From: Hyphomicrobiales bacterium
GTDB lineage: Bacteria > Pseudomonadota > Alphaproteobacteria > Rhizobiales > Rhizobiaceae
Reading direction: 5' to 3'
Length of the DNA: 64,000 nt
NCBI GenBank assembly: GCA_900473045.1
Contig: UCKS01000041.1
Location: 199 to 64,198 of the forward strand
The notes beneath the pieces are model-generated. The model was not told the origin of the DNA. It searched no databases and saw only the letters and a list, made by a program, of their open reading frames with translations. Below, one piece after another: positions 843 through 15,868 of this stretch. A program made the translations under genes and the position numbers. The first letter of the stretch is position 1. Every line of letters starts with the position of its first letter.

Positions 843-890
843 ATGGACATCGCCAGCCCGGCAGTGATCTGCACCGAGTTCACGCTATGA
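843..890 (+). CDS. possible 15-codon leader peptide coupled to maoC-like gene
   Basis: ATG at 843 follows an ideal GGAGG (832-836, 6-base spacing) and encodes [15 protein letters not shown] before a TGA at 888-890. That stop overlaps the ATG (887) of the MaoC-like gene as ATGA. The MaoC start itself has no clear ribosome-binding site. This suggests either a coupled leader peptide or the frameshifted N-terminus of a once longer protein. No composition typical of an attenuation peptide is apparent. Confidence 0.4.
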
Positions 891-1441
891 ACACCATTGC
901 GCCAACCGTGGGCGTGTCCTCCACCCAACCATCCGACATGCCAGCCGACCACGCGTCGCTGCCCGTGTGGAATGCCGAAAACTGGCTCTATGAGGATTGG
1001 CCGGTTGGACAGCGCATCCGCTCTCTGCGGCGAACCATGGCCGAGGGCGACAGCCACATGTTCAACATGCTGGTCACCGACATTCACCCTTATGTGCAGG
1101 ACCAGATGTTTGCCGAGCGCGAAGGCATCTTCGGCAAGCGGCTGATTGCCGGTGCCTTCGTGTTTTCCGCCGGTCTCGGGCTTGTCGCGACCAATTGCGT
1201 CAACGCCTTTTCCTATGGCTATGACAGGCTACGCTTCATCAAGCCAGTCTTCATCGGCGACACCATCTACACGATCCGCACCAACCTCGATAAGCGGCCG
1301 CGCTACAAGGACATAGGCCTGATCCGCGCCAGTTACGAGGTGTTCAAGGGTGAAGGCGAACTGGTGCTCTACTGCGAGCATCTCCAGACAGTGAAATACA
1401 AGAACCCGGCCGATTTTGCCGGTAAGACGGAAAAACAATAA
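887..1441 (+). CDS. MaoC-fold (hot-dog) protein, possibly non-catalytic
   Basis: About 184 residues from the ATG at 887. The frame is open further upstream, but that part does not look coding. The C-terminal half has the MaoC-like segment [20 protein letters not shown], almost the same as in the second MaoC protein at 12444-12893. MaoC-type enoyl-CoA hydratases carry a D-x-N-P-x-H-x-D type motif; here the matching stretch reads DIHPYVQD, so the catalytic His appears replaced. It may be a structural partner of the other MaoC protein or have a changed activity. The stop is directly followed by the CoA-transferase ATG (1442), so the two are co-transcribed. Confidence 0.75.
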
Positions 1442-2602
1442 ATGTCAGCCGATACCGACCTTCCCCTCGCCGGCCTGATCGTCGTCGATCTCAGCCAGTT
1501 CCTCTCCGGTCCCTACTGTTCCCTGCGGCTGATGGATCTCGGCGCCCGCGTCATCAAGATCGAGCGGCCGGACGGCGGCGACCTGTCGCGGCGGCTTTAT
1601 CTCAGCGATACCGAGATCGGTGGCGATTCCACCATCTTTCACGCGATCAACCGCGCCAAGGAAAGCCTGTCGATCGACCTGAAAGACGAGAAGGATCTGG
1701 CGTCGCTGCGGAAACTGCTCGCCAAGGCTGACGTGCTGATCCAGAACTTCCGGCCCGGCGTCATCGAACGGCTTGGGCTCGATTACGAGGCCGTGAAGGC
1801 GATCAACCCACGCCTCGTCTACGCATCGATCAGCGGCTATGGTGAGGAAGGCCCCTGGGTCAAGCGACCGGGGCAGGACCTCTTGGCGCAGTCGCGGTCC
1901 GGCGTGATGTGGCTGAATGGCGACGAGGACCAGGGGCCGGTGCCGTTCGGTCTGGCGATCGGCGACATGCTGGCCGGTGCCGCCCTTGCGCAAGGCATTC
2001 TTGCAGCGCTCGTCCGGCGCAGCATCAAGGGCACCGGTAGCCATGTCGAAACCAGCCTGCTTGAAGCGCTGGTCGATTTCCAGTTCGAGGTGCTGACGAC
2101 CCATCTCAACGACGGACGGCGACTACCGAAGCGGGCAAACTTCCGCAGCGCTCATGCCTATCTTTCGGCACCCTACGGTGTCTATGCGGCTGCCGACGGT
2201 TACCTCGCAATCGCCATGACGCCGATCCCCAAGCTTGCCGATCTGCTCGGCATGGACGAGCTTGCGCCTTACCGCGACAACTCATCCACCTGGTTTACCG
2301 CCCGCGACGAGATCAAGGCGCTGATTGCCAAACGCATCGCCACCAAGACCACCGACGAATGGCTGGCAATCCTCGAACCGGCGGATATCTGGTGCGCCCG
2401 GGTACTGAACTGGAACGAGCTTCTGGAGAGCGAGGGCTTTCAGGTTCTCGACATGTTGCAGACCGTCACCCGCGAAGACAATATCTCGATCACGACGACG
2501 CGCTCGCCGCTCCGCGTCAACGGCGTGCGGGCCAAGGTCGACCGCGCCGCGCCACGCATCGGTGAACACAGCCAGGCTATTCGCGAAGAGTTCGGCCTAT
2601 GA
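1442..2602 (+). CDS. CaiB/BaiF family (class III) CoA-transferase
   Basis: 386 residues, the usual length for this family. The N-terminus (LAGLIVVDLSQFLSGPYCS, then LGARVIKIERPDGGD and NRAKESLSIDLK) is characteristic, as is GYGEEGPWVKRPGQDLLAQ; the Asp of GQDLLAQ matches the family's catalytic aspartate. These enzymes move CoA between carboxylic acids. It sits between a MaoC-fold gene and a binding-protein homologue, abutting the former and overlapping the latter by 4 bases (ATGA). The substrate is unknown; the locus suggests an acid derived from sugar-acid breakdown. Confidence 0.9.
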   Translation: MSADTDLPLAGLIVVDLSQFLSGPYCSLRLMDLGARVIKIERPDGGDLSRRLYLSDTEIGGDSTIFHAINRAKESLSIDLKDEKDLASLRKLLAKADVLIQNFRPGVIERLGLDYEAVKAINPRLVYASISGYGEEGPWVKRPGQDLLAQSRSGVMWLNGDEDQGPVPFGLAIGDMLAGAALAQGILAALVRRSIKGTGSHVETSLLEALVDFQFEVLTTHLNDGRRLPKRANFRSAHAYLSAPYGVYAAADGYLAIAMTPIPKLADLLGMDELAPYRDNSSTWFTARDEIKALIAKRIATKTTDEWLAILEPADIWCARVLNWNELLESEGFQVLDMLQTVTREDNISITTTRSPLRVNGVRAKVDRAAPRIGEHSQAIREEFGL

Positions 2603-3732
2603 CTATCATACTGAAGGGCATGACCTGGAGCCACCCACGCGGCTATGACCCGATGGTCGCCTGCTCGCGCCGCTGGTTCAACGAAACCGGCGTCACCGTC
2701 GAATGGGAAAAGCGCTCACTGCAGGATTTCGAAACGTTTCCCGTCGAGGAACTGGCGCGTCAATTCGATCTCATCGTCATCGACCATCCGCATGTCGGGC
2801 AGATTACCCATGAGAAATGCCTGCTGCCGCTGGATGTTGCCGGACGCGAAGGCGAACGTGCCGCGCTGGCGGCCGCCAGTGTCGGGCAGTCCTATCCGAG
2901 CTACACATGGCAGGGCCGTCAATGGGCGTTCCCGATCGATGCGGCAACACAGGTGCAGGCCTGGCGGCCGGATCTGCAGGCCGCACCGCCCGCCAATTGG
3001 GCAGACGTGCTTGAGCTGGCGCGAGCCGGAAAAGTTCTCATACCGCTGCGCCCGCCCCATTCATTGATGAGTTTTTACACGCTCTGCGGCAATCTCGGGG
3101 GGCCTTGCGCGGTCGAGGGGCCGGGCGAACTGATTGCCATCGAGACCGGCATCCAAGTTTTCGAGATGCTGCGCGAGATCGCCGGTCTGGTCGATCCGTC
3201 CTGCTTCGAGATGGACCCGATCGCGGTGCTCGAACGCATGGCACAACCGGGCACAACGGCCGTGGTGGCGCCGTTGATCTATGGTTACGTCAACTATTCG
3301 GTGAAGGGTTTCCGGCCGGGCCTCGTCCGCTTCGGCGATATTCCGCCGGTGGGCAAAAACGGGCCGATCGGCTCGGCATTGGGCGGGACCGGCATTGCCG
3401 TTTCGGCATTTTGCGAAAACCCCGACGCTGCCATCGACTTTGCCCACTGGATTGCCAGCGGCGACGTCCAGAAAGCCGATTACGCCACAACAGGCGGACA
3501 ACCCGGTCACGCGGACGCGTGGGAAGACTCCTCGGTCAACCTCGCCACCGCCGACTTCTATCGCGCCACCCGCGCGACGCTCAATGGGGCCTGGGTCCGC
3601 CCACGTCACGATGGTTACATGGGCTTCCAGCAGTCGGCATCCGACCGATTGAACGAAGGCCTTATACAGCGCCAGTCAGCAAAGGCCGTTGTCGGGGATA
3701 TCAATCGATTGTTCGTAGAGAGTTTTCGATAA
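2599..3732 (+). CDS. ABC-type solute-binding protein homologue without signal peptide
   Basis: 377 residues resembling family 1 extracellular solute-binding proteins (WEKRSLQDFETFPVEELARQ near the start, LGGTGIAVSAFCENPDAAID and a FAHWIASGDVQKA segment later). Unlike the partner gene at 5651, the N-terminus (MTIILKGMTWSHPRGYD) has no hydrophobic signal segment, so the protein is predicted to stay in the cytoplasm unless the start is misplaced. The ATG overlaps the CoA-transferase stop. It could be a sensor, a chaperone for an intermediate, or a binding protein that lost export. A convergent terminator hairpin follows. Confidence 0.7.
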   Translation: MTIILKGMTWSHPRGYDPMVACSRRWFNETGVTVEWEKRSLQDFETFPVEELARQFDLIVIDHPHVGQITHEKCLLPLDVAGREGERAALAAASVGQSYPSYTWQGRQWAFPIDAATQVQAWRPDLQAAPPANWADVLELARAGKVLIPLRPPHSLMSFYTLCGNLGGPCAVEGPGELIAIETGIQVFEMLREIAGLVDPSCFEMDPIAVLERMAQPGTTAVVAPLIYGYVNYSVKGFRPGLVRFGDIPPVGKNGPIGSALGGTGIAVSAFCENPDAAIDFAHWIASGDVQKADYATTGGQPGHADAWEDSSVNLATADFYRATRATLNGAWVRPRHDGYMGFQQSASDRLNEGLIQRQSAKAVVGDINRLFVESFR

Positions 3733-3739
3733 AGGGACA

Positions 3740-3760
3740 GGCCGGCGGCAAACGCCGGCC
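3740..3760. terminator. bidirectional hairpin terminator
   Basis: GGCCGGCG (3740-3747) and CGCCGGCC (3753-3760) form a perfect 8-bp stem with a GCAAA loop, followed by ACCGTTTT. It lies between the convergent genes ending at 3732 and 3767. Confidence 0.7.
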
Positions 3761-3766
3761 ACCGTT

Positions 3767-4603
3767 TTAGAGGCGCCAAAGCCTCTTGGCGTTGCCCGAC
3801 AGCAGCTTCTCCCGTTCGCCTTGCGAACATCCGGCCAGCAGCGCATGGGTCGCCGCCATCCAGGTCGAAAGACCGCCGCCCAGCGTGCAGACCGGCCAGT
3901 CACTACCCCAGACGACATGATCCCAACCGAATTGCTCAATCGTGTGCTCGACATAGGGTCGAAGCGTCTCGACAGACCAGCTTTCCGCTTCGGCATAAGC
4001 GACGACGCCGGAAATCTTGGCGGTGACGTTCGGGCGTTTGGCAATCTCGGTCATATTGTCCCGCCACGGCTGGACTGCGCCGGACGCGATTGCGGGCACA
4101 CCACAATGGTCGAGGATAAACTGAACCTCCGGCGCCAGATCAGCCAGCGCAATGGCTTTGGGTATCTGATGCGGCAGGACGCAGAGGTCGAAGGACAGGC
4201 CGGTGCCACCAAGCCGTTTGATATTCTCGCGAAACAACGTGCCTTCCGACACATCATCGGGCACGACATGCAGCACGCGGCGGAAACCCTTGACGAACGG
4301 GTTCGCCTGCTGGCGCTCAAGATAGGTGGCAAAGCCAGTTTCTTCAGGACGGCAGGAGGCGATGGCGCCGGAAATCAGATTTTCGGAGCGCTTGGACAGA
4401 TCCTGGACATAGACGATTTCAGCTTCAACCTGTGCAGGCTCGACGTCCACCTCCATATGCAAGGCCGCCCCGATACCGCAGCGCTTTGCCTCGGTCGCGT
4501 AGGTTCCATAGAGAAAGTCGCGGTCCAGCGCCGGTGCGCCCGACAGCCACGGATAGGCAAGCGCTGCCCTGTCGATCAGATGCAGATGGGTGTCGATGAT
4601 CAT
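3767..4603 (-). CDS. amidohydrolase, COG3618 type (probable sugar lactonase)
   Basis: 278 residues, a metal-dependent TIM-barrel hydrolase. The start MIIDTHLHL carries the HxH metal pair; further motifs are FILDHCGVP (His), KISGVVAYAE (Lys) and WGSDWPVC (the Asp that activates water), followed by GNAKRLW at the C-terminus, typical of this amidohydrolase branch. Members hydrolyse L-fuconolactone, L-rhamnonolactone or similar lactones. With an L-fuconate dehydratase homologue in the same locus, L-fuconolactonase is the best guess. It is transcribed from its own promoter, in which a TTC/GAA dyad (4656-4669) is present. Confidence 0.85.
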   Translation of the reverse strand: MIIDTHLHLIDRAALAYPWLSGAPALDRDFLYGTYATEAKRCGIGAALHMEVDVEPAQVEAEIVYVQDLSKRSENLISGAIASCRPEETGFATYLERQQANPFVKGFRRVLHVVPDDVSEGTLFRENIKRLGGTGLSFDLCVLPHQIPKAIALADLAPEVQFILDHCGVPAIASGAVQPWRDNMTEIAKRPNVTAKISGVVAYAEAESWSVETLRPYVEHTIEQFGWDHVVWGSDWPVCTLGGGLSTWMAATHALLAGCSQGEREKLLSGNAKRLWRL

Positions 4604-4655
4604 CGGTCCGTGCCCTCCCCGGCGTCGCGCCGACTATTTCACACAAGAAGATATC

Positions 4656-4669
4656 ATTCAAATAAGAAT
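4656..4669. promoter_or_regulatory. candidate IclR operator upstream of lactonase gene
   Basis: ATTC (4656-4659) and GAAT (4666-4669) flank AAATAA. The right half is close to that of the stronger palindrome at 5590-5611. It lies in the region that should hold the promoter of the minus-strand hydrolase. Confidence 0.35.
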
Positions 4670-4696
4670 TTCATTACCCAAGCTCCGAATCGATGC

Positions 4697-5482
4697 TCAT
4701 TCCGTGTGATTGACATCTGATCCGGCAAGCAGCGAAAGCTGGGCAGCCGTCTTTTGCAGAAGCGCAATGCTTTCGGTGATATCCGGTGCTGACGGGGCGT
4801 TGACCAAGGCGATGTAGGGGCAGGTCAATGCGGCAATGCCGCGGCCGTCCGGCCCCAGGATCGGTGCAGACAGATTGTAGACCCCGGCGGTTTGCGCGCT
4901 GGCCATCATCTCATAGCCACGCTGGCGGATCCGGTCGAGCCGTTCAAAGAAGTCGTCAGAGAGCGGCGGTTCCGAAAGGCTTTTGACATGCTCGGAAATC
5001 ATCATCTGACGCTCTTCTTCACTGCGGAAGGCGAGCAGCACATGGCCCGACCCGGTATCGAACAGGCTGATATGCGAGCCGACACGGATAGATATTCCCC
5101 AATAATCCGGGGCTTCCTGCTGGGCGATGACCACGGCAAAGCCGCGGTCGAACACCGCCAGATGATTGGCCTGGCGGCTGCGTTGGGCAAGATCGCGCAT
5201 CAGCGGAGTCGCATAGGAGGCCAGGCGCCGGACCGGCGCGTGCAGTTGCGACAGGCCGAACAGCTTGAGCGTCAGCGAGTAGCGGTCGCCATCGATCCGC
5301 GTGACGTAACCGCGCCGGACTAGCCGGTCGAGCATACGGTAGAATTCGTTCGGGCTCCGCTCGAGCTTCTTTGAAATCTCGGCCTGCGTCAGGCCACCGT
5401 CCACACCGGCCAGAAGCTCGAGAATATCAAGCCCCTTGTCCAGCGCCGGTGCGCGGTAACGGTCGGATTCGTCAACGTCCAT
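4697..5482 (-). CDS. IclR-family transcriptional regulator
   Basis: 261 residues from the ATG at 5482, which follows a GGGG ribosome-binding site; the frame is open to 5569 but the extra part is not protein-like. N-terminal winged helix (ALDKGLDILELLA, then LTQAEISKKLERSPNEFYRM and a DGDRYSLTLKLF wing) and the C-terminal IclR effector domain (VRVGSHISLFDTGSGHVLLA, then YNLSAPILGPDGRGIAALT). It is divergent from the transporter operon and next to the lactonase gene, and is the obvious regulator of the locus, probably a repressor released by a sugar acid. Confidence 0.92.
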   Translation of the reverse strand: MDVDESDRYRAPALDKGLDILELLAGVDGGLTQAEISKKLERSPNEFYRMLDRLVRRGYVTRIDGDRYSLTLKLFGLSQLHAPVRRLASYATPLMRDLAQRSRQANHLAVFDRGFAVVIAQQEAPDYWGISIRVGSHISLFDTGSGHVLLAFRSEEERQMMISEHVKSLSEPPLSDDFFERLDRIRQRGYEMMASAQTAGVYNLSAPILGPDGRGIAALTCPYIALVNAPSAPDITESIALLQKTAAQLSLLAGSDVNHTE

Positions 5483-5552
5483 CAGCACATCCCCCTGTGA
5501 ATGAGTTACTTCATATACGCATAAGAGACACACGACAAAGCAAAGTTGCGGC

Positions 5553-5583
5553 TTGACGCAAGGGTGCATTTGCTGTTTGTATA
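5553..5583 (+). promoter_or_regulatory. putative promoter of the transporter/catabolic operon
   Basis: TTGACG at 5553-5558 is followed about 18-19 bases later by TTGTAT/TGTATA (5577-5583), a reasonable sigma-70 pair for rhizobia. The palindrome at 5590-5611 begins just after the -10 and would overlap the transcription start. Confidence 0.45.
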
Positions 5584-5589
5584 TAAATC

Positions 5590-5650: not shown

Positions 5651-6967
5651 ATGAACAAGCTGCTTTCCGGCGTGTCAGCCGGAGTAATGTTGTTTGCCTG
5701 CTCGGTCGCGGCACAAGCTGCAGACCTGCCCGGCAAATTCGACGGCGTGACGATCGATGCGAAGCTCATCGGCGGCCAGCAATATGAAAAGCTCTATGAG
5801 CGCATCGGCGAGTGGGAAAAGGAGACGGGCGCCAGGGTCAACATCCTGTCGAAGAAGAACCACTTCGAACTCGACAAGGAAATTAAGTCGGACATCGCCA
5901 CCGGTGGCCTCAGCTGGTGCGTCGGCTCGAACCATTCGTCCTTTGCCCCGCAATATCCGGATATCTATACCGACCTGACGCCACTGATCCCGGCCGAGGA
6001 AATCGCCAAGTTCGTGCCGGCGCTGATTGCCGCCTCGACGCTTAACGGCAAGCTGGTCATGCTGCCGCGCGCCCAGTTCGACGTTTCGGCGTTGTATTAC
6101 CAGAAGAGCCTTTATCAGGACGAAGCCAAGAAGACGGCCTTCAAGGCCAAGTACGGCTATAACCTGACACCGCCCGACACTTGGGCACAGGTTTCCGACC
6201 AAGCAGAGTTCTTCTCCGCACCACCAACATTCTACGGCACGCAGTTTGCCGGCAAGGAAGAGGCGATCAACGGCCGCTTCTATGAAATGCTGGTTGCCGA
6301 AGGAGGCGAATATCTCGACAAGGATGGCCGCCCAGTCTTCAACTCCGACGCCGGTGTGCGCGCGCTCGACTGGTTCGTCAAGCTTTACAAGGACAAGGCC
6401 GTTCCGGCCGGCACCACCAACTATCTCTGGGACGATCTCGGCCAGGGCTTCGCGTCCGGCTCCATCGCACTCAATCTCGACTGGCCTGGCTGGGCGAGCT
6501 TTTTCAACGATCCGAAATCCTCCAAGGTTGCCGGCAATGTCGGTGTGAAGGTCCAACCGGCCGGTTCCTCCGGCAAGCGCACCGGCTGGTCCGGTCACCA
6601 TGGCTTCTCGGTCACGGAATCCTGCGCCAACAAGGAAGCTGCCGCTTCGCTCGTCTGGTGGCTGACCAACGAAGACAGCCAGAAGCAGGAATCGGCGACC
6701 GGTCCGCTGCCGACACGCAACGCCGTCTGGGATTACAACATCAAGGCCGCCGAAGGCGACGCCTACAAGACCGAAGTGCTGCAGGCGTTCCAGGAAGCGG
6801 CAAAGCACGCCTTCCCGGTTCCGCAGACAGCCGAATGGATCGAAATCTCCAACTCGGTCTATCCGGAACTCCAGGCTGCGATCCTTGGCGACAAGACATC
6901 CAAGCAAGCGCTCGACAGCGCTGCCGAGAAGGCGACGACCATCCTCCAGGATGCCGGCAAGCTTTGA
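5651..6967 (+). CDS. carbohydrate ABC transporter, periplasmic binding protein
   Basis: 438 residues, family 1 solute-binding protein. The N-terminus has a Sec signal peptide (MNKLLSGVSAGVMLFACSVA, probable cleavage after AQA). The mature part has the two-lobe family features, including NLDWPGWASFF and WSGHHGFSVTE, with TGPLPTRNAVW near the C-terminal third. A GAGGAGG ribosome-binding site precedes the ATG at 5651. It is the first gene of the long plus-strand operon running to 15868; the ligand is unproven but probably a deoxy-sugar or its acid. Confidence 0.92.
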   Translation: MNKLLSGVSAGVMLFACSVAAQAADLPGKFDGVTIDAKLIGGQQYEKLYERIGEWEKETGARVNILSKKNHFELDKEIKSDIATGGLSWCVGSNHSSFAPQYPDIYTDLTPLIPAEEIAKFVPALIAASTLNGKLVMLPRAQFDVSALYYQKSLYQDEAKKTAFKAKYGYNLTPPDTWAQVSDQAEFFSAPPTFYGTQFAGKEEAINGRFYEMLVAEGGEYLDKDGRPVFNSDAGVRALDWFVKLYKDKAVPAGTTNYLWDDLGQGFASGSIALNLDWPGWASFFNDPKSSKVAGNVGVKVQPAGSSGKRTGWSGHHGFSVTESCANKEAAASLVWWLTNEDSQKQESATGPLPTRNAVWDYNIKAAEGDAYKTEVLQAFQEAAKHAFPVPQTAEWIEISNSVYPELQAAILGDKTSKQALDSAAEKATTILQDAGKL

Positions 6968-6977: not shown

Positions 6978-7007
6978 GCGGCGCCACGGCTTTTGCCGTG
7001 GCGCCGC
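6978..7007 (+). terminator. intra-operon hairpin after the binding-protein gene
   Basis: GCGGCGCCACGGC (6978-6990) and GCCGTGGCGCCGC (6995-7007) form a perfect 13-bp stem with a TTTT loop between the binding-protein stop and the first permease. Such structures usually stabilise the upstream mRNA or partly terminate, giving more binding protein than permease. Confidence 0.7.
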
Positions 7008-7040
7008 TTTCAATTTCCGGCGCAAATCAAAGGGCGCGAC

Positions 7041-7937
7041 ATGAAACTATCCAGATTATCGGCACCGGTGCTGCTGCTGTTTCCGGCGTTCCTGGTTCTG
7101 GCGGCTGTTGTCGTCGTGCCGCTGGCGCTCTCCTTCTATTCGAGCTTCACGCCGTTCCGCCTGACCAAGCCGGAATCGCTCTATGTCTTCATCGGCCTGC
7201 GCAACTATATCACCGTCTTGTCGAGCTGGGATTTCTGGGTCGCTTTCGGGCGCACCGTCCTGTTCCTGACGATTGCGCTGAACGCCGAAATGCTGCTGGG
7301 CCTCGGTCTGGCGCTGCTGGTCTCCAAGGCCGTGCGGGGTCAGCGCTTGCTGCGCACCCTGATGATGTTCCCGATGATGTTTTCGCCAGTGCTCGTCGGC
7401 TTCCAATTCAAGTTCCTGTTCAATGACAATATCGGCCTGATCAACAACGGCCTGCAGTCGCTCGGCCTCACCGACCAGGCGATCCCGTGGCTGATCGATG
7501 GCAATCTGGCGTTGTTTTCGATCACCGTCGCCGAAGTCTGGTCATCGACCTCGGTCTTTGCGATCCTCATTCTTGCCGGGCTTCTCGCCATGCCGCGCGA
7601 TCCGATCGAGGCCGCCCATGTCGATGGGTGCACGCCGCTCCAGACCTTCCGCTTTGTCACCTGGCCCTATCTGATGCCGTTCGCCTTCATCGCCATGACC
7701 ATCCGCTCGCTGGATGTCGCGAGAGCCTATGACATCGTCAAGATCATGACCGACGGCGGACCGGCCAAGCGCACCGAGCTTCTGTGGACGCTGGTTGGGC
7801 GCACCGCCTATAGCGACGCCCGCATGGGGATGGCCAACGCGATGGCCTATTTCGCCATCGTGCTGTCGATCCTCTTCACCGTCTATTTCTTCCGCAAGCT
7901 CGCAGCCGCGCGCCAGCAGATCGGAGCTGAGTGGTAA
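7041..7937 (+). CDS. sugar ABC transporter permease (MalF/UgpA type)
   Basis: About 298 residues from the ATG at 7041 (the frame is open to 6993, but the upstream part lies over the hairpin). Six hydrophobic segments are visible, beginning with APVLLLFPAFLVLAAVVVVP. The EAA loop that contacts the ATPase reads EAAHVDGCTPLQTFRFVTWP near residue 195, as in the MalF/UgpA class. The stop overlaps the next permease start by one base (TAATG), so the two membrane subunits are translationally coupled. Confidence 0.92.
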   Translation: MKLSRLSAPVLLLFPAFLVLAAVVVVPLALSFYSSFTPFRLTKPESLYVFIGLRNYITVLSSWDFWVAFGRTVLFLTIALNAEMLLGLGLALLVSKAVRGQRLLRTLMMFPMMFSPVLVGFQFKFLFNDNIGLINNGLQSLGLTDQAIPWLIDGNLALFSITVAEVWSSTSVFAILILAGLLAMPRDPIEAAHVDGCTPLQTFRFVTWPYLMPFAFIAMTIRSLDVARAYDIVKIMTDGGPAKRTELLWTLVGRTAYSDARMGMANAMAYFAIVLSILFTVYFFRKLAAARQQIGAEW

Positions 7938-8803
7938 TGGATATCAATTCGTCCCACCGTCTGCGCAAGCGCCTCTATTCCCTTGCCCATGTCATCACCT
8001 TATTCGTGGCGATGCTGATCATCTGCCTGCCCGGTTTCTGGATCGTGCTGTCATCGCTGCGCCCGACCGTCGAGATTATGGCAAAACCGCCGGTCTGGAT
8101 CCCGCAGGACCTGTCGCTTGACGCTTACCGCTCGATGTTTTCAGGCGCCGGACAGGGTGGCATTCCGGTCTGGTCCTATTTCCGCAACTCGCTGATCATC
8201 TCGATCACCTCAACCTTCATTGCCCTTGGGATTGGCATGGCCGGTGGCTACGCCTTTGCGCGCTACAAGTTCAAGGCAAAGTCGGCGATCTTCCTCGGCT
8301 TCATGCTCACTCGTGCTGTCCCCGGGATCGCGCTGTCGCTGCCCTTGTTCATGATCTTTGCCCGCACCGGCATTATCGATACGCATTTCGCGCTGATCCT
8401 TACCTATGTTGCGCTCAACGTGCCCTTCACCATCTGGCTGATAGACGGATTCTTCCGGCAGGTGCCGAAAGATCTGGCGGAAGCGGCCCAGATCGACGGT
8501 TGCACGCGCTGGCAGGCCTTCTGGCAGGTGGAGTTTCCGCTGGCAGGCCCCGGCATCGCATCGGCCGGCATCTTTTCTTTCCTGATCTCGTGGAACGAAT
8601 ATGCGCTGGCCTCACAGATCACCCGCTCGGTGAATTCCAAGACGCTGCCGGTCGGCCTGCTCGACTACACCGCCGAGTTCACGATCGACTGGCGTGGCAT
8701 GTGCGCACTGGCGGTCGTGATGATCATCCCGGCGCTGACACTCACCTTCATCATACAAAAGCACCTCGTCTCCGGCCTCACCTTCGGCGCGGTCAAAGGA
8801 TAA
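7937..8803 (+). CDS. sugar ABC transporter permease (MalG/UgpE type)
   Basis: 288 residues from the ATG at 7937; a GTG two codons earlier (7931) is less likely. The inner-membrane protein has about six transmembrane segments, starting with VITLFVAMLIICLPGFWIVL, and the EAA loop EAAQIDGCTRWQAFWQVEFP near residue 185. A C-terminal KHLVSGLTFGAVKG tail is typical of the MalG class. It pairs with the preceding permease and the following ATPase. Confidence 0.92.
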   Translation: MDINSSHRLRKRLYSLAHVITLFVAMLIICLPGFWIVLSSLRPTVEIMAKPPVWIPQDLSLDAYRSMFSGAGQGGIPVWSYFRNSLIISITSTFIALGIGMAGGYAFARYKFKAKSAIFLGFMLTRAVPGIALSLPLFMIFARTGIIDTHFALILTYVALNVPFTIWLIDGFFRQVPKDLAEAAQIDGCTRWQAFWQVEFPLAGPGIASAGIFSFLISWNEYALASQITRSVNSKTLPVGLLDYTAEFTIDWRGMCALAVVMIIPALTLTFIIQKHLVSGLTFGAVKG

Positions 8804-8806: not shown

Positions 8807-9904
8807 ATGGCTCCCGTCAGTCTCAAGAAACTGGTCAAGCGCTACGGCGCGCTGGAAGTGGTGCACGGCATCGACCTGGAAGTGAAGGATCGCGAGTTCA
8901 TCGCCTTGGTCGGCCCGTCCGGCTGCGGAAAATCGACGACGCTGCGGATGATCGCCGGCCTGGAAGATGTCAGTGGCGGCACGATCGAGATTGGTGACAA
9001 TGTCGTCAACGACCTGCCGCCCCGGGCCCGCAACATTTCAATGGTGTTCCAGTCCTATGCGCTCTATCCGCATATGACCGTTGGCGAGAATATGGGCTTT
9101 TCGCTGAAGATCGCCGGGCGCCCGGTCGAGGAAATCAAGGAAAAGGTGGCGGACGCCGCCGCCATTCTTGACCTGTCGCACCTGCTCGAGCGCCGTCCGT
9201 CGCAGCTTTCCGGCGGCCAGCGCCAGCGTGTGGCCATGGGCCGCGCCATCGTCCGGCGTCCGGATGTATTCCTGTTCGATGAGCCGCTGTCCAATCTCGA
9301 TGCCAAGCTGCGCACGCAGGTTCGCACCGAGATCAAAAAGCTGCATGCCCGCATGCAGGCAACGATGATCTATGTCACGCATGACCAGGTTGAGGCGATG
9401 ACGCTATCCGACCGTATCGTCATCATGCGCGATGGCCATATCGAGCAGATCGGCACGCCGGAAGAGGTGTTCAACCGGCCGCTTACCAAGTTCGTTGCAG
9501 GGTTCATCGGTTCGCCGCCGATGAACATGGACGACGTGACAGTGGACGACGGCAAGCTGGTCTTTGCCACCGGCGCCACCCTGCCGATCCCGCCAAAATT
9601 TCGTCAGAGCCTGACCACCGGCCAGAAGGTAACCTTCGGTCTTCGGCCCGACGACTTCTTTCCGACCGGCCATGGCCTGAATTCCGGCGATGCCGAGGCG
9701 GTTGCCCAACTGGAGCTTCCGGTCTCCATCACCGAACCGCTCGGCAATGAGACGCTGGTCTTTGTCGGTTTCAACGGCCGCGATTGGGTGTCGCGCATGC
9801 TCAATCCCCGCCCCCTGCCCTCCGGGCAGAATATCAAGATGAGCTTCGATCTCTCGCAAGCGCACCTGTTCGACCTGACCACCGGCAATAGCCTGGTCGC
9901 CTGA
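8807..9904 (+). CDS. sugar ABC transporter ATPase (MsmK/UgpC type)
   Basis: 365 residues. Walker A GPSGCGKST near residue 37, Q-loop MVFQSYALYPHM, signature LSGGQRQRV, Walker B VFLFDEPLSNLDAKL, and the H-loop VTHDQVEAM. A C-terminal regulatory (TOBE-like) domain follows (FGLRPDDFFPTG, then EPLGNETLVF). It energises import by the two permeases encoded just upstream, 3 bases away. All nucleotide-binding motifs are intact. Confidence 0.95.
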   Translation: MAPVSLKKLVKRYGALEVVHGIDLEVKDREFIALVGPSGCGKSTTLRMIAGLEDVSGGTIEIGDNVVNDLPPRARNISMVFQSYALYPHMTVGENMGFSLKIAGRPVEEIKEKVADAAAILDLSHLLERRPSQLSGGQRQRVAMGRAIVRRPDVFLFDEPLSNLDAKLRTQVRTEIKKLHARMQATMIYVTHDQVEAMTLSDRIVIMRDGHIEQIGTPEEVFNRPLTKFVAGFIGSPPMNMDDVTVDDGKLVFATGATLPIPPKFRQSLTTGQKVTFGLRPDDFFPTGHGLNSGDAEAVAQLELPVSITEPLGNETLVFVGFNGRDWVSRMLNPRPLPSGQNIKMSFDLSQAHLFDLTTGNSLVA

Positions 9905-9914
9905 GGAATTTTTG

Positions 9915-11027
9915 ATGGCCCGTATAGAAAAAATCGAACTGCGCATGGTCGACCTTCAGCCGAAGGTAAAGCGGACCGACGCGATCCAGAGCTTTGTCAG
10001 CCAGGAAACGCCTTTCGTCACAATCACCGATTCCGATGGAGCAACCGGAACCGGCTATAGCTATACGATCGGCACGGGCGGTTCGTCCGTCATGCGGCTT
10101 TTGTCGGACCATCTCGTGCCACTGTTGCTCGGTGCGGATGCCGATTGTATCGAGGCGATCTGGCATAAGCTGGAATTTGCCACGCACGCAACTACGATCG
10201 GCCCGATCACGGCGCTGGCGCTTGCTGCCGTCGATACCGCACTTTGGGACCTGCGGGCGAAAAAGCAACATCTTCCCTTATGGAAGCTAGCCGGCGGCGC
10301 GCGTGACCGTTGCCCACTCTACACGACCGAGGGCGGCTGGCTGCACATCGACAAGCAGGATTTGGTCGATGATGCGCTGCAGGCCAAGGCAAAAGGCTTT
10401 TCCGGCTCCAAGATCAAGATCGGCCGTCCGCACGGCTCCGAAGACTACGACCGGCTGTCGGCGGTGCGCGCCGCCGTTGGTCCGGCTTTCGAGATCATGA
10501 CCGATTGCAACCAGGGTTTTGCCATCGATGAAGCCATCCGGCGCGTCGGGCGTTTGCAGGAACTCGATCTCGCCTGGATTGAAGAACCACTTCCGGCTGA
10601 CGATCTCGACGGACATATCCGGCTGTCGCGTTCGACCACGACGCCAATCGCGGTCGGTGAATCGATGTATTCGATCCGCCATTTCCGTGAATATATGCAG
10701 AAAGGTGCCTGCTCGACCGTCCAGGTCGACGTCGCCCGCATCGGCGGCATCACGCCTTGGCTGAAGGTCGCGCATGCGGCCGAAGCGTTCAACATTCCCG
10801 TCTGCCCGCATTTCCTGATGGAACTGCATGTCAGCCTGGTTTGCGCGGTACAGAATGGCAAATATGTCGAGTATATTCCCCAGCTCGACGATTTGACGGA
10901 CAAGCGCATGGAGATCGTCGATGGCCAGGCACTCGCCCCATCCGAACCCGGCATCGGCATTTCCTGGGACTGGGATGCGGTCAAATCGCGCTCGGTGGAG
11001 GAATTCACCCGTGAATTCCGGGCCTGA
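9915..11027 (+). CDS. enolase-superfamily enzyme (mandelate racemase/muconate lactonizing type)
   Basis: 370 residues. The ATG at 9915 directly follows an in-frame TTG. The capping domain is followed by a barrel with KIKIG (KxK base), MTDCNQGF (metal Asp), WIEEPLPADD (metal Glu), AVGESMY (metal Glu) and CPHFLMELH (His base), the arrangement of mandelate racemase-group acid-sugar dehydratases. It differs from the second enolase-superfamily gene (14591-15868), so it probably acts on another acid sugar or epimer. It lies between the transporter ATPase and a mutarotase gene. Confidence 0.88.
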   Translation: MARIEKIELRMVDLQPKVKRTDAIQSFVSQETPFVTITDSDGATGTGYSYTIGTGGSSVMRLLSDHLVPLLLGADADCIEAIWHKLEFATHATTIGPITALALAAVDTALWDLRAKKQHLPLWKLAGGARDRCPLYTTEGGWLHIDKQDLVDDALQAKAKGFSGSKIKIGRPHGSEDYDRLSAVRAAVGPAFEIMTDCNQGFAIDEAIRRVGRLQELDLAWIEEPLPADDLDGHIRLSRSTTTPIAVGESMYSIRHFREYMQKGACSTVQVDVARIGGITPWLKVAHAAEAFNIPVCPHFLMELHVSLVCAVQNGKYVEYIPQLDDLTDKRMEIVDGQALAPSEPGIGISWDWDAVKSRSVEEFTREFRA

Positions 11028-11039: not shown

Positions 11040-11369
11040 ATGCAGCGCATGAGCATGGTGATCGGGCTTGAGCCGACCAAGATCGTTGAATACCGGCAGC
11101 TGCATGCCGCCGTGTGGCCGGAAATCCTTGCCCTGATCTCCGACTGCAACATCAGCAACTATTCGATTTTCCTCAAGGAGCCGGAAAACCTGTTGTTCGG
11201 TTATTGGGAATATATTGGCAGCGATTTCGAGGCCGACATGGCGAAGATGGCGGCGCATCCGAAAAACCAGGAATGGTGGTCGGTCTGCATGCCCTGCCAG
11301 AAGCCGCTTTCTACGCGCAACGACGGCGAGTGGTGGGCGATGATGGAAGAGGTTTTCCATCATGACTGA
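11040..11369 (+). CDS. L-rhamnose/L-fucose mutarotase family protein
   Basis: 109 residues, the typical size of the RhaM-like dimeric alpha/beta barrel. Family features: MVIGLEPTKIVEYRQLHAAVW at the start (with the His before AAVWPEI), NYSIFLKEPENLLFGYWEY, and a WWSVCMPCQKPL stretch near the end. These enzymes interconvert anomers of 6-deoxy-hexoses, speeding supply to the next enzyme. The stop overlaps the following oxidoreductase by 8 bases. L-fucose is the likely sugar given the neighbouring genes, but rhamnose is possible. Confidence 0.85.
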   Translation: MQRMSMVIGLEPTKIVEYRQLHAAVWPEILALISDCNISNYSIFLKEPENLLFGYWEYIGSDFEADMAKMAAHPKNQEWWSVCMPCQKPLSTRNDGEWWAMMEEVFHHD

Positions 11370-12447
11370 GCCTTTCGATCCCACGACGCTTCGCCAATGG
11401 TGGCCAAAACCCGCCGCGCCGCGCCCCATCGTCATTTTCGGTGCCGGCAGCATCGTCGGCGATGCCCATCTGCCTGCCTACAGGAACGCCGGTTTCCCGG
11501 TCGCCGGTCTCTACGATCCAAATGCTGACAAAGCGCGCGCACTGAAAGAAACCTGGGGTATCCGCAGCTTTTCCAGTGAAGATGAAGCGCTAGCGGTGAA
11601 AGATGCTGTCTTTGATCTCGCGACGCCGCCTGCAACACATGCTGCGATCCTGTCGAAACTGCCCTCTGGCTCTGCTGCACTCATTCAGAAGCCAATGGGC
11701 TCGGATCTTGCGGCAGCGACGGAAATCCTCAATATCTGCCGCGCCGGGCAGTTGAAGGCTGCGGTCAATTTCCAGCTGCGCTTCGCACCGATGATGCTGG
11801 CCTTGAAGGACGCGGTCGAGCGCGGGGTCCTTGGCGAAATCGTCGATTTCGATGCCTGGCTGGCACTGGCGACGCCGTGGGGTCTGTGGCCCTTCCTTAA
11901 AGGTCTGCCGCGCATCGAGATTGCCATGCATTCCATCCATTACCTGGATTTCATTCGCGGTCTGATCGGCAATCCGCTCGGAGTGCACGCCAAGACCATC
12001 GGCCATCCGAACCATGACGTTGCGCAGACCCGTACGGCGGCCATTCTCGACTATGGCGACAGGCTGCGCTGCGTCCTCTCGGTCAATCACGACCATGATT
12101 TCGGCCGCAAGTTCCAGGCCTGCGAGTTCCGCATTTCAGGCACCAAGGGCGCCGCCTATATCAAGCTTGGCGTCAATCTCGACTATCCGCGCGGTGAACC
12201 GGACGAGCTCTGGATCCGTCCGGCCGGTGGTGAGGAATGGATCTATGTGCCGCTGCAAGGCGCATGGTTTCCCGATGCCTTCGCCAATCGCATGGCCAAC
12301 CTGCAGCGCTTTGCCGCGGGAGAGGACGATGTCCTGGTCGGCTCCGTCGAGGATGCCTGGCAGACCATGGCGCTGGTCGAAGCCGCCTATCAATCCAGCG
12401 CGCAACCAGCGACCCCAATTGCGCCGCTACCGGGACTGGAATCTTGA
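11362..12447 (+). CDS. Gfo/Idh/MocA family oxidoreductase
   Basis: 361 residues. The N-terminal Rossmann fold starts after about 20 residues with [18 protein letters not shown]; the [11 protein letters not shown] segment and QKPMGSDL (equivalent of the EKP motif) follow. The C-terminal alpha/beta domain contains [18 protein letters not shown] and [14 protein letters not shown], in which a catalytic His is expected. A sugar or inositol-type NAD(P)-dependent dehydrogenase; it may supply the first oxidation of the sugar, since no obvious L-fucose dehydrogenase is present. It overlaps both neighbours. Confidence 0.88.
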
Positions 12448-12893
12448 GCGAACAGATCATCCATTTCGAAGCTTATGAACTCGGCTCGATCAGGCTGACC
12501 ACCGGCCGCACGATCACCGAGACTGATTTCGTCGTCCATGCCGGCCATACCGGCGATTTCTTTCCGCATCACATGGATGCGGAATTCGCCAAAACCCTGC
12601 CGGGCGGCCAGCGCATCGCCCATGGCACGATGATCTTTTCCATCGGCGTCGGCCTCACCGCATCGCTGATCAATCCGGTCGCATTTTCTTATGGCTATGA
12701 CCGATTGCGGTTTGTCCGTCCGGTCCACATTGGTGATACGATCCGCACGCGCGTCACGATCGCGGCCAAGGACGACGACCCGAAACGGCCGGCGTCCGGC
12801 CGCGTCACCGAACGCTGCGAAGTCATCAACCAACGCGACGAAGTCGTGCTCGCCGCCGATCACATTCTTATCGTCGAACGCAAGAAAACCTAA
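12444..12893 (+). CDS. MaoC-fold hydratase
   Basis: 149 residues from a TTG at 12444 that overlaps the previous stop (TTGA) after a GGGACTGGA ribosome-binding region; the frame is open upstream inside the oxidoreductase gene. The motif [13 protein letters not shown] keeps the Asp and His expected of MaoC (R)-hydratases, and [18 protein letters not shown] and [20 protein letters not shown] complete the hot-dog fold. It probably hydrates or dehydrates an enoyl-CoA. The related copy at 887-1441 lacks the His, so this one is the likely catalytic member. Confidence 0.85.
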
Positions 12894-12907
12894 AAGAGGC
12901 CAATGAC

Positions 12908-13642
12908 ATGACCGCCAATCTCACCGGCAAGAAAGTCCTGATCACCGCTGCGGCGCAAGGCATAGGCCAGGCGTCTGCCCTCGCCTTCGCTCGCGCCGGT
13001 GCGATTGTCCACGCCACCGACATCAACGTCGAAGCGCTTGCCGCTCTGGACAAGGAAGGGGGGATCTCCACCCACATTCTCAATGTGCTGGAGGCAGATG
13101 CCGTTTCAACGTTGGTTGCGGAGATCGGCGACATTGATGTGCTGTTCAACTGCGCCGGTGTCGTTCACGGCGGATCTGTTCTGGAGATGAAGGATAGCGA
13201 TCTCGAATTCGCCTTCGATCTTAACGTCAAGGCGATGATCCGGACCATCCGCGCCGTTCTGCCCGGCATGCTGGCGCGCGGTGACGGTTCGATCGTCAAC
13301 ATGTCGTCGGTCGCCTCCAGCATCAAGGGCGTGCCGAACCGCTTCGCCTATGGCGTCACCAAGGCTGCCGTGATTGGCCTGACCAAGGCCGTTGCCGCCG
13401 ATTATGTTGCGCAGGGCATCCGCTGCAACGCCATTTGCCCCGGCACGGTTGAAAGCCCGTCGCTGCAGGAGCGCATGCGCTCGCAGGGCGACTATGATAC
13501 CGCCCGAGCCGCCTTCATTGCCCGTCAGCCGATGGGCCGGCTTGGCACGCTGGAAGAGATCGCCGACCTCGCCGTCTATCTTGCCGGCGCCACATATACG
13601 ACCGGCCAGGCCTACGCCATTGACGGTGGCTGGACGATCTGA
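12908..13642 (+). CDS. SDR dehydrogenase, 2-keto-3-deoxy-L-fuconate dehydrogenase-like
   Basis: 244 residues, classical short-chain dehydrogenase. Cofactor motif ITAAAQGIGQ near residue 12, acidic residue in ATDIN (NAD preference), NCAGV, the Ser of NMSSVASSIKGV, and the catalytic YGVTK. GIRCNAICPGTVESPSLQER matches the subgroup that includes 2-keto-3-deoxy-L-fuconate 4-dehydrogenase. It is expected to oxidise the fuconate dehydratase product to the 2,4-diketo acid, which the next gene's hydrolase would cleave. Confidence 0.88.
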   Translation: MTANLTGKKVLITAAAQGIGQASALAFARAGAIVHATDINVEALAALDKEGGISTHILNVLEADAVSTLVAEIGDIDVLFNCAGVVHGGSVLEMKDSDLEFAFDLNVKAMIRTIRAVLPGMLARGDGSIVNMSSVASSIKGVPNRFAYGVTKAAVIGLTKAVAADYVAQGIRCNAICPGTVESPSLQERMRSQGDYDTARAAFIARQPMGRLGTLEEIADLAVYLAGATYTTGQAYAIDGGWTI

Positions 13643-13659
13643 AAACAGGAAACACGCTC

Positions 13660-14505
13660 ATGAAACTTCTTCGCTATGGCGCACCTGGCGCTGAAAAACC
13701 GGCCATTCTCGACGCTGACGGCGCAATCCGCGACCTTTCCGGCCATGTCTCCGATATCGGCGGCAAGGACATCGATCCTGCGGCACTTGCTGCGCTGGCT
13801 AAGCTCGATCCGGCCAGCCTTCCGCTGGTCGCCGGCACGCCGCGCATCGGTCCCTGCGTTGCCGGCACCGGCAAATTCATCTGCATCGGCCTCAACTATG
13901 CCGACCATGCTGCAGAATCCGGCATGGCGGTGCCCCCAGAACCCGTCGTCTTCATGAAGGCGACGTCAGCAATCGTCGGCCCCAATGATGATCTGCTGAT
14001 CCCGCGCGGCTCGGAAAAGACTGACTGGGAAGTGGAACTCGGTGTCGTCATCGGCAAGACCGCCAAATACGTCTCTGAACCCGACGCCCTCGATTATGTC
14101 GCCGGCTATTGCACCGTCCACGACGTCTCCGAACGCGCCTTCCAGATCGAGCGCTCCGGCCAGTGGACCAAAGGCAAGTCCTGCGACACGTTCGGTCCAA
14201 TCGGCCCGTGGCTGGTGACGAAGGACGAAGTCGCCGATCCGCAAAACCTCGGGCTCTGGCTGAAGGTCAACGGCGAAACCGTGCAGAACGGCACCACGAA
14301 GACCATGGTCTATGGCGCTGCCTTCCTGGTTTCCTATCTCAGCCAGTTCATGTCGCTGCATCCCGGCGACATTATATCCACCGGCACCCCTCCCGGCGTC
14401 GGCATGGGCATGAAGCCGCCGCGCTACCTGAAACCCGGCGATGTCGTCGAACTCGGCATCGAGGGTCTCGGAAGCCAGAAGCAAACAACACGGGCAGATA
14501 TCTGA
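13660..14505 (+). CDS. fumarylacetoacetate hydrolase family protein (2,4-diketo-3-deoxy-L-fuconate hydrolase-like)
   Basis: 281 residues. After an N-terminal arm the FAH domain begins at CIGLNYADHAAESG (about residue 72). Metal ligands are in DWEVELGVVIG and the following HDVSERAFQIERSGQW segment; later GPIGPWLVTKDE and ISTGTPPGVGMGM are family signatures. Such enzymes split C-C bonds of diketo acids. In the L-fucose pathway the products would be pyruvate and L-lactate. It follows the SDR by 17 bases and precedes the fuconate dehydratase homologue. Confidence 0.88.
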   Translation: MKLLRYGAPGAEKPAILDADGAIRDLSGHVSDIGGKDIDPAALAALAKLDPASLPLVAGTPRIGPCVAGTGKFICIGLNYADHAAESGMAVPPEPVVFMKATSAIVGPNDDLLIPRGSEKTDWEVELGVVIGKTAKYVSEPDALDYVAGYCTVHDVSERAFQIERSGQWTKGKSCDTFGPIGPWLVTKDEVADPQNLGLWLKVNGETVQNGTTKTMVYGAAFLVSYLSQFMSLHPGDIISTGTPPGVGMGMKPPRYLKPGDVVELGIEGLGSQKQTTRADI

Positions 14506-14590
14506 GGTTTTTGGCCGGCATAGCGCCTTGCTTGCGCCGGCCAATTCCCAAGACGATAGCCTTGCCGTCCTACCTTTTCGGAGTAAACCC

Positions 14591-15868
14591 ATGACCCGCA
14601 TCACCGATCTCCGTGTGTTCGACCTGCGCTTCCCCACCTCGCAAAGCCTTGATGGTTCGGATGCGATGAACCCTGATCCGGATTATTCCGCCGCTTACGT
14701 CATTCTGGACACCGACTGGGATGGACTTTCGGGCCACGGCCTGACCTTCACCATCGGCCGTGGTAACGAGATCTGCTGCGCGGCAATCAATGCGATGAAG
14801 CATCTGGTCGTTGGAACCGAACTTTCTGACATCCTTTCTCATCCCGGCAAATACTGGCGGCATCTGACCGGCGACAGCCAGTTGCGCTGGATCGGCCCCG
14901 ACAAGGGCGCCATGCATCTCGCCACCGGCGCCGTCGTCAATGCAGTCTGGGACCTGCTCGCCAAGCAGGCGGGAAAACCCGTCTGGCGGCTCATCGCCGA
15001 CATGCCGGCCGAAGAGATCGCTGATATCGTCGACTATCGCTACCTCACCGATGTGCTGACCCGCGACGAGGCCGTCGCTATCCTCAAGCGCGCTGAAGCC
15101 GGCAAGGCCGCGCGCATCACGACGCTCGAGGCCGAGGGATATGCCTGCTACACGACATCGGCCGGTTGGCTAGGTTATGACGACGAAAAGCTGCGGCGCC
15201 TCTGCCAAGAAGCGATTGATACCGGTTTCAACCACGTCAAGATGAAGGTCGGGCGCGATCTTGAAGACGATATCCGCCGCCTGCGTATCGCTCGTGACGT
15301 CATCGGCCCGGATCGTTACCTGATGATCGACGCCAATCAGGTTTGGGAAGTCGACGAGGCCATCGATTGGGTCAACAAGCTTGCCTTCGCCAAGCCATTC
15401 TTCATCGAGGAGCCGACCAGCCCCGACGACGTGGCCGGGCACCGCAAGATCCGCGCGGGCATCGGCGCGGTCAAGGTCGCGACCGGTGAGATGTGCCAGA
15501 ACCGCATCATGTTCAAGCAGTTCATCGCCGAGGGTGCGATCGATATCGTCCAGATCGATTCATGCCGTATGGGCGGGTTGAACGAGGTTCTGGCGGTTCT
15601 TCTGATCGCAGCCAAATATGACCTGCCGGTCTGGCCGCATGCTGGTGGCGTCGGCCTTTGTGAATATGTCCAGCATCTGTCGATGATCGACTATGTCGCC
15701 GTGTCCGGCACCAAGGACGGCCGCGTGATCGAGTATGTCGACCATCTGCACGAGCATTTCCTCGAGCCCTGCATCATTGAAAATGCTGCTTATATGCCAC
15801 CAAAGGCCGCAGGATTCTCGATCGAAATGAAGACTGCATCGATCGAGCAATACCTGTTCAAGGGATGA
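14591..15868 (+). CDS. L-fuconate dehydratase homologue (enolase superfamily)
   Basis: 425 residues from the ATG at 14591 with a GGAGTAA ribosome-binding site; the open frame upstream overlaps the FAH gene and is not used. It has the longer build of L-fuconate dehydratases: SLDGSDAMNPDPDYSAAYV near the N-terminus, HVKMKVGRDLEDD (catalytic Lys), MIDANQVW (Asp), FIEEPTSPDD (Glu), VATGEMCQNR (Glu) and WPHAGGVGLCEYVQHL (His). It would convert L-fuconate to 2-keto-3-deoxy-L-fuconate. Last gene of the operon, followed by a strong hairpin. Confidence 0.9.
   Translation: MTRITDLRVFDLRFPTSQSLDGSDAMNPDPDYSAAYVILDTDWDGLSGHGLTFTIGRGNEICCAAINAMKHLVVGTELSDILSHPGKYWRHLTGDSQLRWIGPDKGAMHLATGAVVNAVWDLLAKQAGKPVWRLIADMPAEEIADIVDYRYLTDVLTRDEAVAILKRAEAGKAARITTLEAEGYACYTTSAGWLGYDDEKLRRLCQEAIDTGFNHVKMKVGRDLEDDIRRLRIARDVIGPDRYLMIDANQVWEVDEAIDWVNKLAFAKPFFIEEPTSPDDVAGHRKIRAGIGAVKVATGEMCQNRIMFKQFIAEGAIDIVQIDSCRMGGLNEVLAVLLIAAKYDLPVWPHAGGVGLCEYVQHLSMIDYVAVSGTKDGRVIEYVDHLHEHFLEPCIIENAAYMPPKAAGFSIEMKTASIEQYLFKG

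Follow-up and report, generated by a model that had tools for sequence, protein, structure and literature searches.

Background

Class III coenzyme A (CoA) transferases work together with a hydratase or dehydratase in CoA-recycling dehydrations, as in the CaiB/CaiD system of carnitine, FldA/FldBC and BaiF/BaiE. The sugar-acid dehydratases known to us belong to the enolase, IlvD/EDD, UxaA/GarD, FAH or DapA kind, and CoA plays no part in any of them. Here we analysed a locus in which a class III CoA-transferase stands among the genes of an L-fucose-type route. It lies in a 64,000-nt stretch (64 kb, hereafter the window) of a Hyphomicrobiales bacterium of the Rhizobiaceae (GCA_900473045.1, contig UCKS01000041.1, positions 199 to 64,198), and all coordinates are positions within that window.

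Two bacterial L-fucose pathways are described in a 2026 review (PMC13406643), the accessible text of which makes no mention of MaoC, CoA-transferase or Gfo. Like the non-phosphorylative L-fucose pathway of Xanthomonas campestris, Burkholderia multivorans and Herbaspirillum huttiense, the locus has a lactonase-like protein, L-fuconate dehydratase (FucD), homologues of the short-chain dehydrogenase/reductase (SDR) and of the FAH-family hydrolase, and a mutarotase in one cluster. Compared with that pathway, it has one SDR and adds a CoA-transferase (CaiB), two MaoC-fold proteins, a protein of the solute-binding-protein fold (SBP2) and a second enolase-superfamily enzyme (EnoA).

We conclude that these additions belong to a module that is real, conserved and, as far as our literature searches reach, undescribed, here merged with the L-fucose-type route. 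Those searches, with subscription papers outside their coverage, found no description of a sugar-acid module of CoA-transferase, solute-binding protein and hydratase. As an explanation we tentatively prefer, at somewhat short of even confidence, a CoA-linked sugar-acid (de)hydration module feeding the fuconate route.

Results

Two separable gene sets

Sixteen genes span 887-15868, in the order maoC1, caiB, sbp2, lactonase and iclR (both on the minus strand), four importer genes, enoA, rhaM, gfo, maoC2, sdr, fah and fucD, as read from open reading frames (ORFs) and Pfam and NCBIfam profiles (Table 1). The lactonase, FucD, SDR and FAH form set A, the known route by which L-fuconate is oxidatively degraded to pyruvate and L-lactate. 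Set B (importer, Gfo, EnoA, CaiB, SBP2, MaoC2 and usually MaoC1) is, from the comparison of loci, a co-inherited group centred on the CoA-transferase. The rhaM gene occurs with either set.

An initial annotation of this DNA had listed mutarotase, lactonase, FucD, SDR, FAH, class III CoA-transferase, two MaoC proteins, a second enolase and Gfo, and profiles place them all within 843-15868. The mutarotase is present as claimed, and its family is corrected to that of L-rhamnose mutarotases (rhaM, PF05336). The IclR regulator, the ABC importer and SBP2 were absent from that list.

Separability was assessed in 199 Rhizobiaceae genomes, with a FucD threshold of E <= 1e-120. FucD was found in 77 genomes and SBP2 of the window type in 48 (both in 39, SBP2 only in 9, FucD only in 38, neither in 113), an association with a Fisher p of 5.5e-12 that takes no account of relatedness. 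Of the 53 genomes with SBP2 matches, five (G001, G004, G013, G064 and G145) hold distant paralogues only and were excluded from the SBP2 set; G004, G064 and G145 count among the 38 FucD-only genomes. Since 38 of the 77 FucD genomes have no window-type SBP2, the fuconate route can do without the CoA set.

We inspected 20 of the 38 FucD-only loci, two of which end at contig edges (L233 and the 5.3-kb L241), and found no caiB, sbp2, maoC1, gfo, enoA, window-type SBP1 or window-type permeases in them. In three (L234, L238 and L240), all that is left of maoC2 is a 3' piece immediately preceding sdr, likely the trace of a set B deletion that spared the lactonase, iclR, sdr, fah and fucD. Other FucD-only loci carry an RbsABC-type importer, some of them with rhaM. 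Gfo, EnoA, whole MaoC2 genes and the window-type importer are jointly absent from the 20 loci and thus belong with the CoA set. The initial annotation had taken Gfo and EnoA as extras to the L-fucose route, and indeed both follow the CoA set, not FucD.

The CoA set also occurs with a UxaA-type dehydratase and without FucD in six loci (L061, L065, L084, L172, L173 and L177); L058 is not counted with them, since FucD lies in that genome about 7 kb past the end of the stretch. The available text of PMC6336799 reports, for an H. huttiense enzyme of the UxaA/GarD superfamily, activity on D-arabinonate (100%) and weak activity on L-fuconate (5.6%).

This distribution could also be explained if the CoA set handled a side compound that FucD processes poorly, such as an epimeric or O-methylated 6-deoxyaldonate, L-galactonate or D-arabinonate, which EnoA and the CoA set would convert to the common route. 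EnoA and the CoA set do occur jointly and are retained next to FucD or UxaA, the window-type SBP2 is missing from the 38 FucD genomes mentioned above, and the importer is unlike the RbsABC-type genes beside FucD in the CoA-less L236, L237, L242 and L243. However, no enzyme of the locus indicates a particular modification, and Gfo, rhaM and the lactonase suit plain 6-deoxyhexoses. We regard this alternative as serious, if rather unlikely.

Conserved gene order and candidate shared regulation

Gene order is largely kept across 40 Rhizobiaceae stretches, taken from 67 places with matches, and the 80 closest named loci (Mesorhizobium, Ensifer, Sinorhizobium, Phyllobacterium, Brucella/Ochrobactrum, Pararhizobium and others). 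The named loci were covered to at most 10 kb on each side, with the far end of the operon mostly outside, and within that range caiB was found in 79, maoC1 in 68, iclR in 68, the lactonase in 66, SBP1 in 63, and enoA, rhaM and gfo in 44. About a dozen named genera show a similar order, on chromosomes and plasmids alike. The core of CaiB, SBP2, Gfo and MaoC appears differently ordered in Martelella, Croceibacterium and Rufibacter.

A palindromic motif, tATTTaTATAtAAATa, was obtained from the iclR/sbp1 promoters alone. Of 68 maoC1 upstream regions, 56 score higher on it than the 95th percentile of shuffles and 23 higher than the 99th, these sequences being related and hence not independent; no motif emerged under a second setting, which used a large pseudocount. 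Among the eight top-scoring sites of the window, five lie in or beside promoters of the cluster (5574, 795, 4655, 814 and 5508, with 5574 and 5508 inside the training region), and the remaining three are at 46697, 40364 and 43672. Common IclR control of sets A and B seems likely.

It is very unlikely that two unrelated operons are adjacent by chance or hitchhike on a rhizobial plasmid, a reading that was already disfavoured. In its favour, about 10 kb of other genes separate caiB-sbp2 from the remaining locus in Sinorhizobium meliloti. Against it stand the order kept in about a dozen genera, the candidate shared operators, the joint absence of set B genes and the core found in other gene orders. 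A search for the gene set in other genomes had been proposed together with the initial annotation: it recurs in the same order in many Rhizobiaceae, so it is not a chance arrangement. Separation of the genes in close relatives, which would have spoken against a joint function, was not seen in most of them, and the trio concerned lies apart in some, as in S. meliloti.

The CoA-transferase and its overlapping partner

CaiB is a full class III CoA-transferase that reaches no named equivalog; its nearest NCBIfam models are dicarboxylate and formyl/oxalate CoA-transferases, with scores far under the cut-offs. The Asp of its RPGQD motif aligns with the Asp of 10uh, and we take it to be the catalytic Asp of class III CoA-transferases. 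Both genes were found in 80 sequences from the window and the 80 loci, and in every one of these sbp2 has a start codon that overlaps the end of caiB by 4 nt.

SBP2 lacks a signal peptide in 66 of 66 sequences. Starts were set at the nearest upstream start codon, and the first conserved motif then lies at an offset of at most 20 in all 66 (at most 11 in 65), with no 12-residue window in the first 45 residues above a mean hydropathy of 1.6. In 32 SBP1 sequences, by comparison, the highest mean hydropathy near the N-terminus has a median of 2.3 (lowest 0.5). The AlphaFold2 model of SBP2 has a predicted local distance difference test (pLDDT) score of 81, and its top Foldseek matches include trehalose-, beta-1,2-glucan- and sulfoquinovose-type binding proteins. 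Against ten relatives in three phyla, SBP2 shows 36-63% identity and 42 invariant columns.

In Rufibacter tibetensis (Bacteroidota), SBP2 lies with two CaiB proteins, a further protein of the same fold, Gfo and MaoC beside TonB/SusD and a RhaT symporter; the 27 kb covered there contain no annotated ABC permease. For that reason SBP2 need not serve an importer and, given also the missing signal peptide, it is probably a cytoplasmic partner of CaiB and not part of the importer. Mirror-tree correlations are high for CaiB-SBP2 (r 0.88) and also for CaiB-EnoA (0.90), with 0.42 for CaiB-rhaM, hence they are not specific.

Some clusters with two CaiB (L077, L082, L174 and L175) carry a second protein of the solute-binding fold beside Gfo, with no evident signal peptide in L077 and L082. 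The caiB gene of S. meliloti 1021 pSymB (L081) reads in two frames and is intact in strains 2011, Rm41 and ml47; a sequencing error and a strain-specific change are indistinguishable here, and strain 1021 was not used as evidence of a natural caiB mutant.

Two MaoC proteins and an exchangeable hydratase

The position of the catalytic His holds Val in 87 of 87 MaoC1 proteins, so MaoC1 is probably a structural, non-catalytic partner; heteromeric MaoC enzymes contain such structural subunits. The MaoC2-type genes keep His in 82 of 83 cases, and the sole one without it (L163) is a weak match that resembles a damaged MaoC1. MaoC2 has an Asp-His dyad, which we take to be catalytic, and its close solved relative 4ffu carries the label 'oxidase'.

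The core was followed in 65 loci: the 40 Rhizobiaceae stretches, 12 from wider Pseudomonadota and 13 annotated plasmid records, including one from Bacteroidota and one from Actinomycetota (the 3.4-kb L181 was left out). CoA-transferase is present in 62 of them and lies within 400 nt of SBP2 in 58. MaoC or crotonase is present in 59 loci (MaoC in 47, crotonase in 15, both in 3). These are unrelated folds that share enoyl-CoA hydratase chemistry, and finding both at the same place points to acyl-CoA (de)hydration as the function, which is the best argument that the sequences offer.

Nine crotonase clusters (L066-L071, L073, L078 and L085) contain another Gfo, a TIM-barrel protein and an SDR, and six of the nine also a long FAH enzyme. 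The long FAH of L085 scores 72.6 bits to 2q18, a 2-keto-3-deoxy-D-arabinonate dehydratase, and 383 bits to 9kkt. On Methylobacterium nodulans pMNOD02 (L080), MaoC-CaiB-SBP2 are found with PdxA, a four-carbon acid sugar kinase and an AMP-binding protein, company hinting at C4 acid-sugar substrates.

We consider it quite unlikely that the folds of SBP2, CaiB and MaoC have been repurposed for a role outside CoA chemistry, with SBP2 acting, for example, as a cytoplasmic sugar sensor or store. SBP2 homologues without a detected CoA-transferase (L169, L170 and L171) would fit such a role; L169 lies beside an IclR-like regulator and enolases. Nevertheless, CaiB retains its aligned Asp and MaoC2 its Asp-His, and unrelated hydratases occur at the same place.

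CaiB and MaoC could instead work downstream, in an exit route that activates and (de)hydrates a small released acid (lactate or a diketo acid). The models nearest to CaiB are indeed short-chain acid CoA-transferases, and a long FAH gene adjoins a CoA-transferase and a crotonase in L207, a stretch in which SBP2 was not found. However, Rufibacter and Thalassospira have the CoA set with Gfo and MaoC, and no FAH, route SDR or FucD is annotated within 13 kb (the rest of these two genomes was unsearched), which makes an exit route unlikely. In Thalassospira, an SDR further upstream of the CoA set adjoins an epoxide hydrolase.

Enzymes of the L-fucose-type route, Gfo, EnoA and importer

For set A, FucD is well supported, matching 4ip4 and the L-fuconate dehydratase 2hne across nearly the full length. 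The lactonase is distantly related to L-fucono-1,5-lactonase. The FAH protein is a probable 2,4-diketo-3-deoxy-fuconate/rhamnonate hydrolase, near the L-2,4-diketo-3-deoxyrhamnonate hydrolase 8gsr, and the SDR is not specific to a single NCBIfam model. The cluster has one SDR only and no dedicated SDR or aldo-keto reductase (AKR) L-fucose 1-dehydrogenase; the remaining genome was not searched for one. The Gfo protein, for which named relatives give weak matches only, is a probable aldose dehydrogenase and may take the place of such an enzyme.

The nearest solved relative of EnoA is 5xd7, a 3,6-anhydro-L-galactonate cycloisomerase (254 bits), and its profile neighbours include talarate/galactarate dehydratase, with no cut-off met. 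From fitness data, the S. meliloti importer SMb21103-21106 may be an L-fucose importer, which the literature consulted here did not show.

Setting of the locus

The initial annotation gave the start as 843, which is not in the MaoC1 frame and begins a leader ORF of 15 codons instead. For MaoC1, the start at 887 is the most likely one, and it matches the annotation of Pararhizobium qamdonense; in that relative the IclR start is 29 codons further in. The leader sequence (843-890) shows no conservation among relatives. By a loose criterion, 44 of 78 loci have short coupled ORFs ahead of maoC1, most of them unrelated in sequence.

A replication region adjoins the locus at about 19300-22897, which we take from its ORFs to be of the repABC type, and P. 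qamdonense plasmid p3 is annotated with a matching neighbourhood that includes repC. Between the locus and the replication region (15908-19255, 3' of the locus) lie a putative class I methyltransferase gene and then a GGDEF-EAL protein, likewise on the P. qamdonense plasmid; the methyltransferase label comes from that annotation, the window gene having no Pfam or NCBIfam match.

Table 1. Genes and candidate regulatory sites of the locus, by position in the window
Feature	Position	Strand	Evidence or remark
Candidate IclR operators, two adjacent	795-810 + 814-829		Upstream of maoC1
Leader ORF, 15 codons	843..890	+	Likely ribosome site; stop overlaps maoC1 start
MaoC1, MaoC-fold	887..1441	+	PF01575 46 bits (scored from 869); Val at catalytic His position
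CaiB, class III CoA-transferase	1442..2602	+	PF02515 345 bits
SBP2, solute-binding-protein fold, no signal peptide	2599..3732	+	PF13416 55.9 bits
Amidohydrolase_2, L-fuconolactonase-like	3767..4603	-	PF04909 186 bits; NF052480 98.8 bits (cut-off 400)
IclR-family regulator	4697..5569	-	Pfam/NCBIfam profiles
Strongest candidate IclR operator	5574..5589		iclR/sbp1 divergent promoter; region within motif training set
SBP1, sugar-binding protein	5651..6967	+	Signal-peptide-like N-terminus
ABC permease	6993..7937	+	PF00528
ABC permease	7931..8803	+	PF00528
UgpC/MalK-type ABC ATPase	8807..9904	+	NF008653 470 bits, over cut-off 432
EnoA, second MR/MLE enolase-superfamily acid-sugar enzyme	9912..11027	+	PF13378 219 bits
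rhaM-family sugar mutarotase	11040..11369	+	PF05336 115.7 bits
Gfo/Idh/MocA oxidoreductase	11362..12447	+	PF01408 46 bits; 5uhw nearest solved, 44.8 bits
MaoC2, MaoC hydratase	12441..12893	+	PF01575 74.6 bits; PDB 4ffu 297 bits; Asp-His dyad present
SDR	12908..13642	+	Pfam/NCBIfam profiles; role by neighbourhood
FAH-family hydrolase	13660..14505	+	NF053535 423 bits (cut-off 500); 8gsr 332 bits
L-fuconate dehydratase (FucD)	14591..15868	+	717 bits to 4ip4; 549 to 2hne

Discussion

The initial annotation had proposed a CoA-type branch attached to an L-fucose-type route, and this union is supported by the synteny, the candidate shared IclR operators, the retained catalytic residues of CaiB and MaoC2, and the 38 of 77 FucD genomes without a window-type SBP2. 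An intermediate of the route or a different 6-deoxy sugar, which that annotation named as what the branch handles, would be possible substrates. For the CoA-linked (de)hydration module that we prefer, the steps could be as follows. The importer would take up a 6-deoxy-sugar, which Gfo would oxidise to a lactone, then opened to the aldonic acid. Inside the cell, SBP2 would use its sugar-binding fold to present this acid to CaiB, which would form the CoA thioester, the CoA being donated by the product thioester or by a different acyl-CoA. MaoC2, with non-catalytic MaoC1, would dehydrate or hydrate the thioester, CaiB would recover the CoA, and the product would pass into the 2-keto-3-deoxy-acid route. 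This proposal draws on the observed gene content, gene order, caiB/sbp2 overlap, residues and separability, and on the operators that the motif indicates; from these we infer all of the catalysis by set B, the order in which the steps occur, the location of SBP2 and the substrate.

Several points weigh against the proposal. FucD makes a second, CoA-dependent L-fuconate dehydratase redundant, which favours another acid as the substrate. EnoA, mostly retained beside FucD, has no role in the explanation. Three of the 65 loci (L169-L171) have SBP2 with neither CoA-transferase nor hydratase found, and another three (L035, L037 and L062) have CaiB-SBP2 with no hydratase within the examined stretch. 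Finally, long-FAH clusters (2-keto-3-deoxypentonate-dehydratase-like) without the CoA module would be expected to carry another aldonate dehydratase. Every third match was taken, giving 40 clusters, of which one has CoA-transferase and SBP2; among the other 39, a recognised aldonate dehydratase lies within about 9 kb in 9 and not in 30. With 30 of 39 lacking one, the absence of a dehydratase near the CoA module means little, and the comparison lends the dehydratase idea no support. The probes were six IlvD/EDD proteins of the same genome, EnoA, FucD and UxaA, which divergent dehydratases would escape; four stretches reach contig ends (L198, L206, L219 and L221), and L207 was scored as without the module, having no SBP2.

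The choice of hydratase could follow the stereochemistry at C3. With 3-hydroxyacyl-CoA, MaoC enzymes act on the (R) form and crotonases on the (S) form. Drawn in Fischer projection, L-fuconate, D-arabinonate and L-rhamnonate have their C3 hydroxyl on the D side, and D-xylonate and L-arabinonate have theirs on the L side. MaoC beside FucD fits this corollary. In its general form, in at least three phyla a cytoplasmic sugar-binding protein would hand an aldonic acid to CaiB and an enoyl-CoA hydratase would (de)hydrate the resulting sugar-acyl-CoA, MaoC serving acids with a D-side C3 and crotonase those with an L-side C3; we think that this generalisation is improbable.

If the CoA-linked module is confirmed, a CoA-linked route and a solute-binding fold as intracellular enzyme partner would be a new logic in carbohydrate catabolism. 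It would also give a function to a recurrent gene set annotated as 'extracellular solute-binding protein' and 'CaiB/BaiF CoA-transferase'. Rhizobia such as Sinorhizobium and Mesorhizobium carry the module next to the L-fucose-type pathway, which makes it directly testable in laboratory S. meliloti.

Conclusions

Among described systems, the non-phosphorylative pentose Routes II and III (Watanabe 2019, PMC6336799) have in common with the loci studied here an FAH-type 2-keto-3-deoxypentonate (KDP) dehydratase, SDR and FAH cleavage and a UxaA/GarD-type dehydratase; they appear to proceed without a CoA step, the term CoA being absent from the available text of that paper. SBP2 has the fold and Pfam family of ABC solute-binding proteins (SBP_bac_8), and it differs from them in lacking a signal peptide and in having CaiB, not permeases, as partner. 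By analogy with CaiB/CaiD, FldA/FldBC and BaiF/BaiE, the module pairs a class III CoA-transferase with a partner hydratase that has the predicted catalytic residues. Unlike those systems, it stands in a sugar-acid setting, employs MaoC or crotonase, and has a partner gene of the solute-binding fold overlapping caiB.

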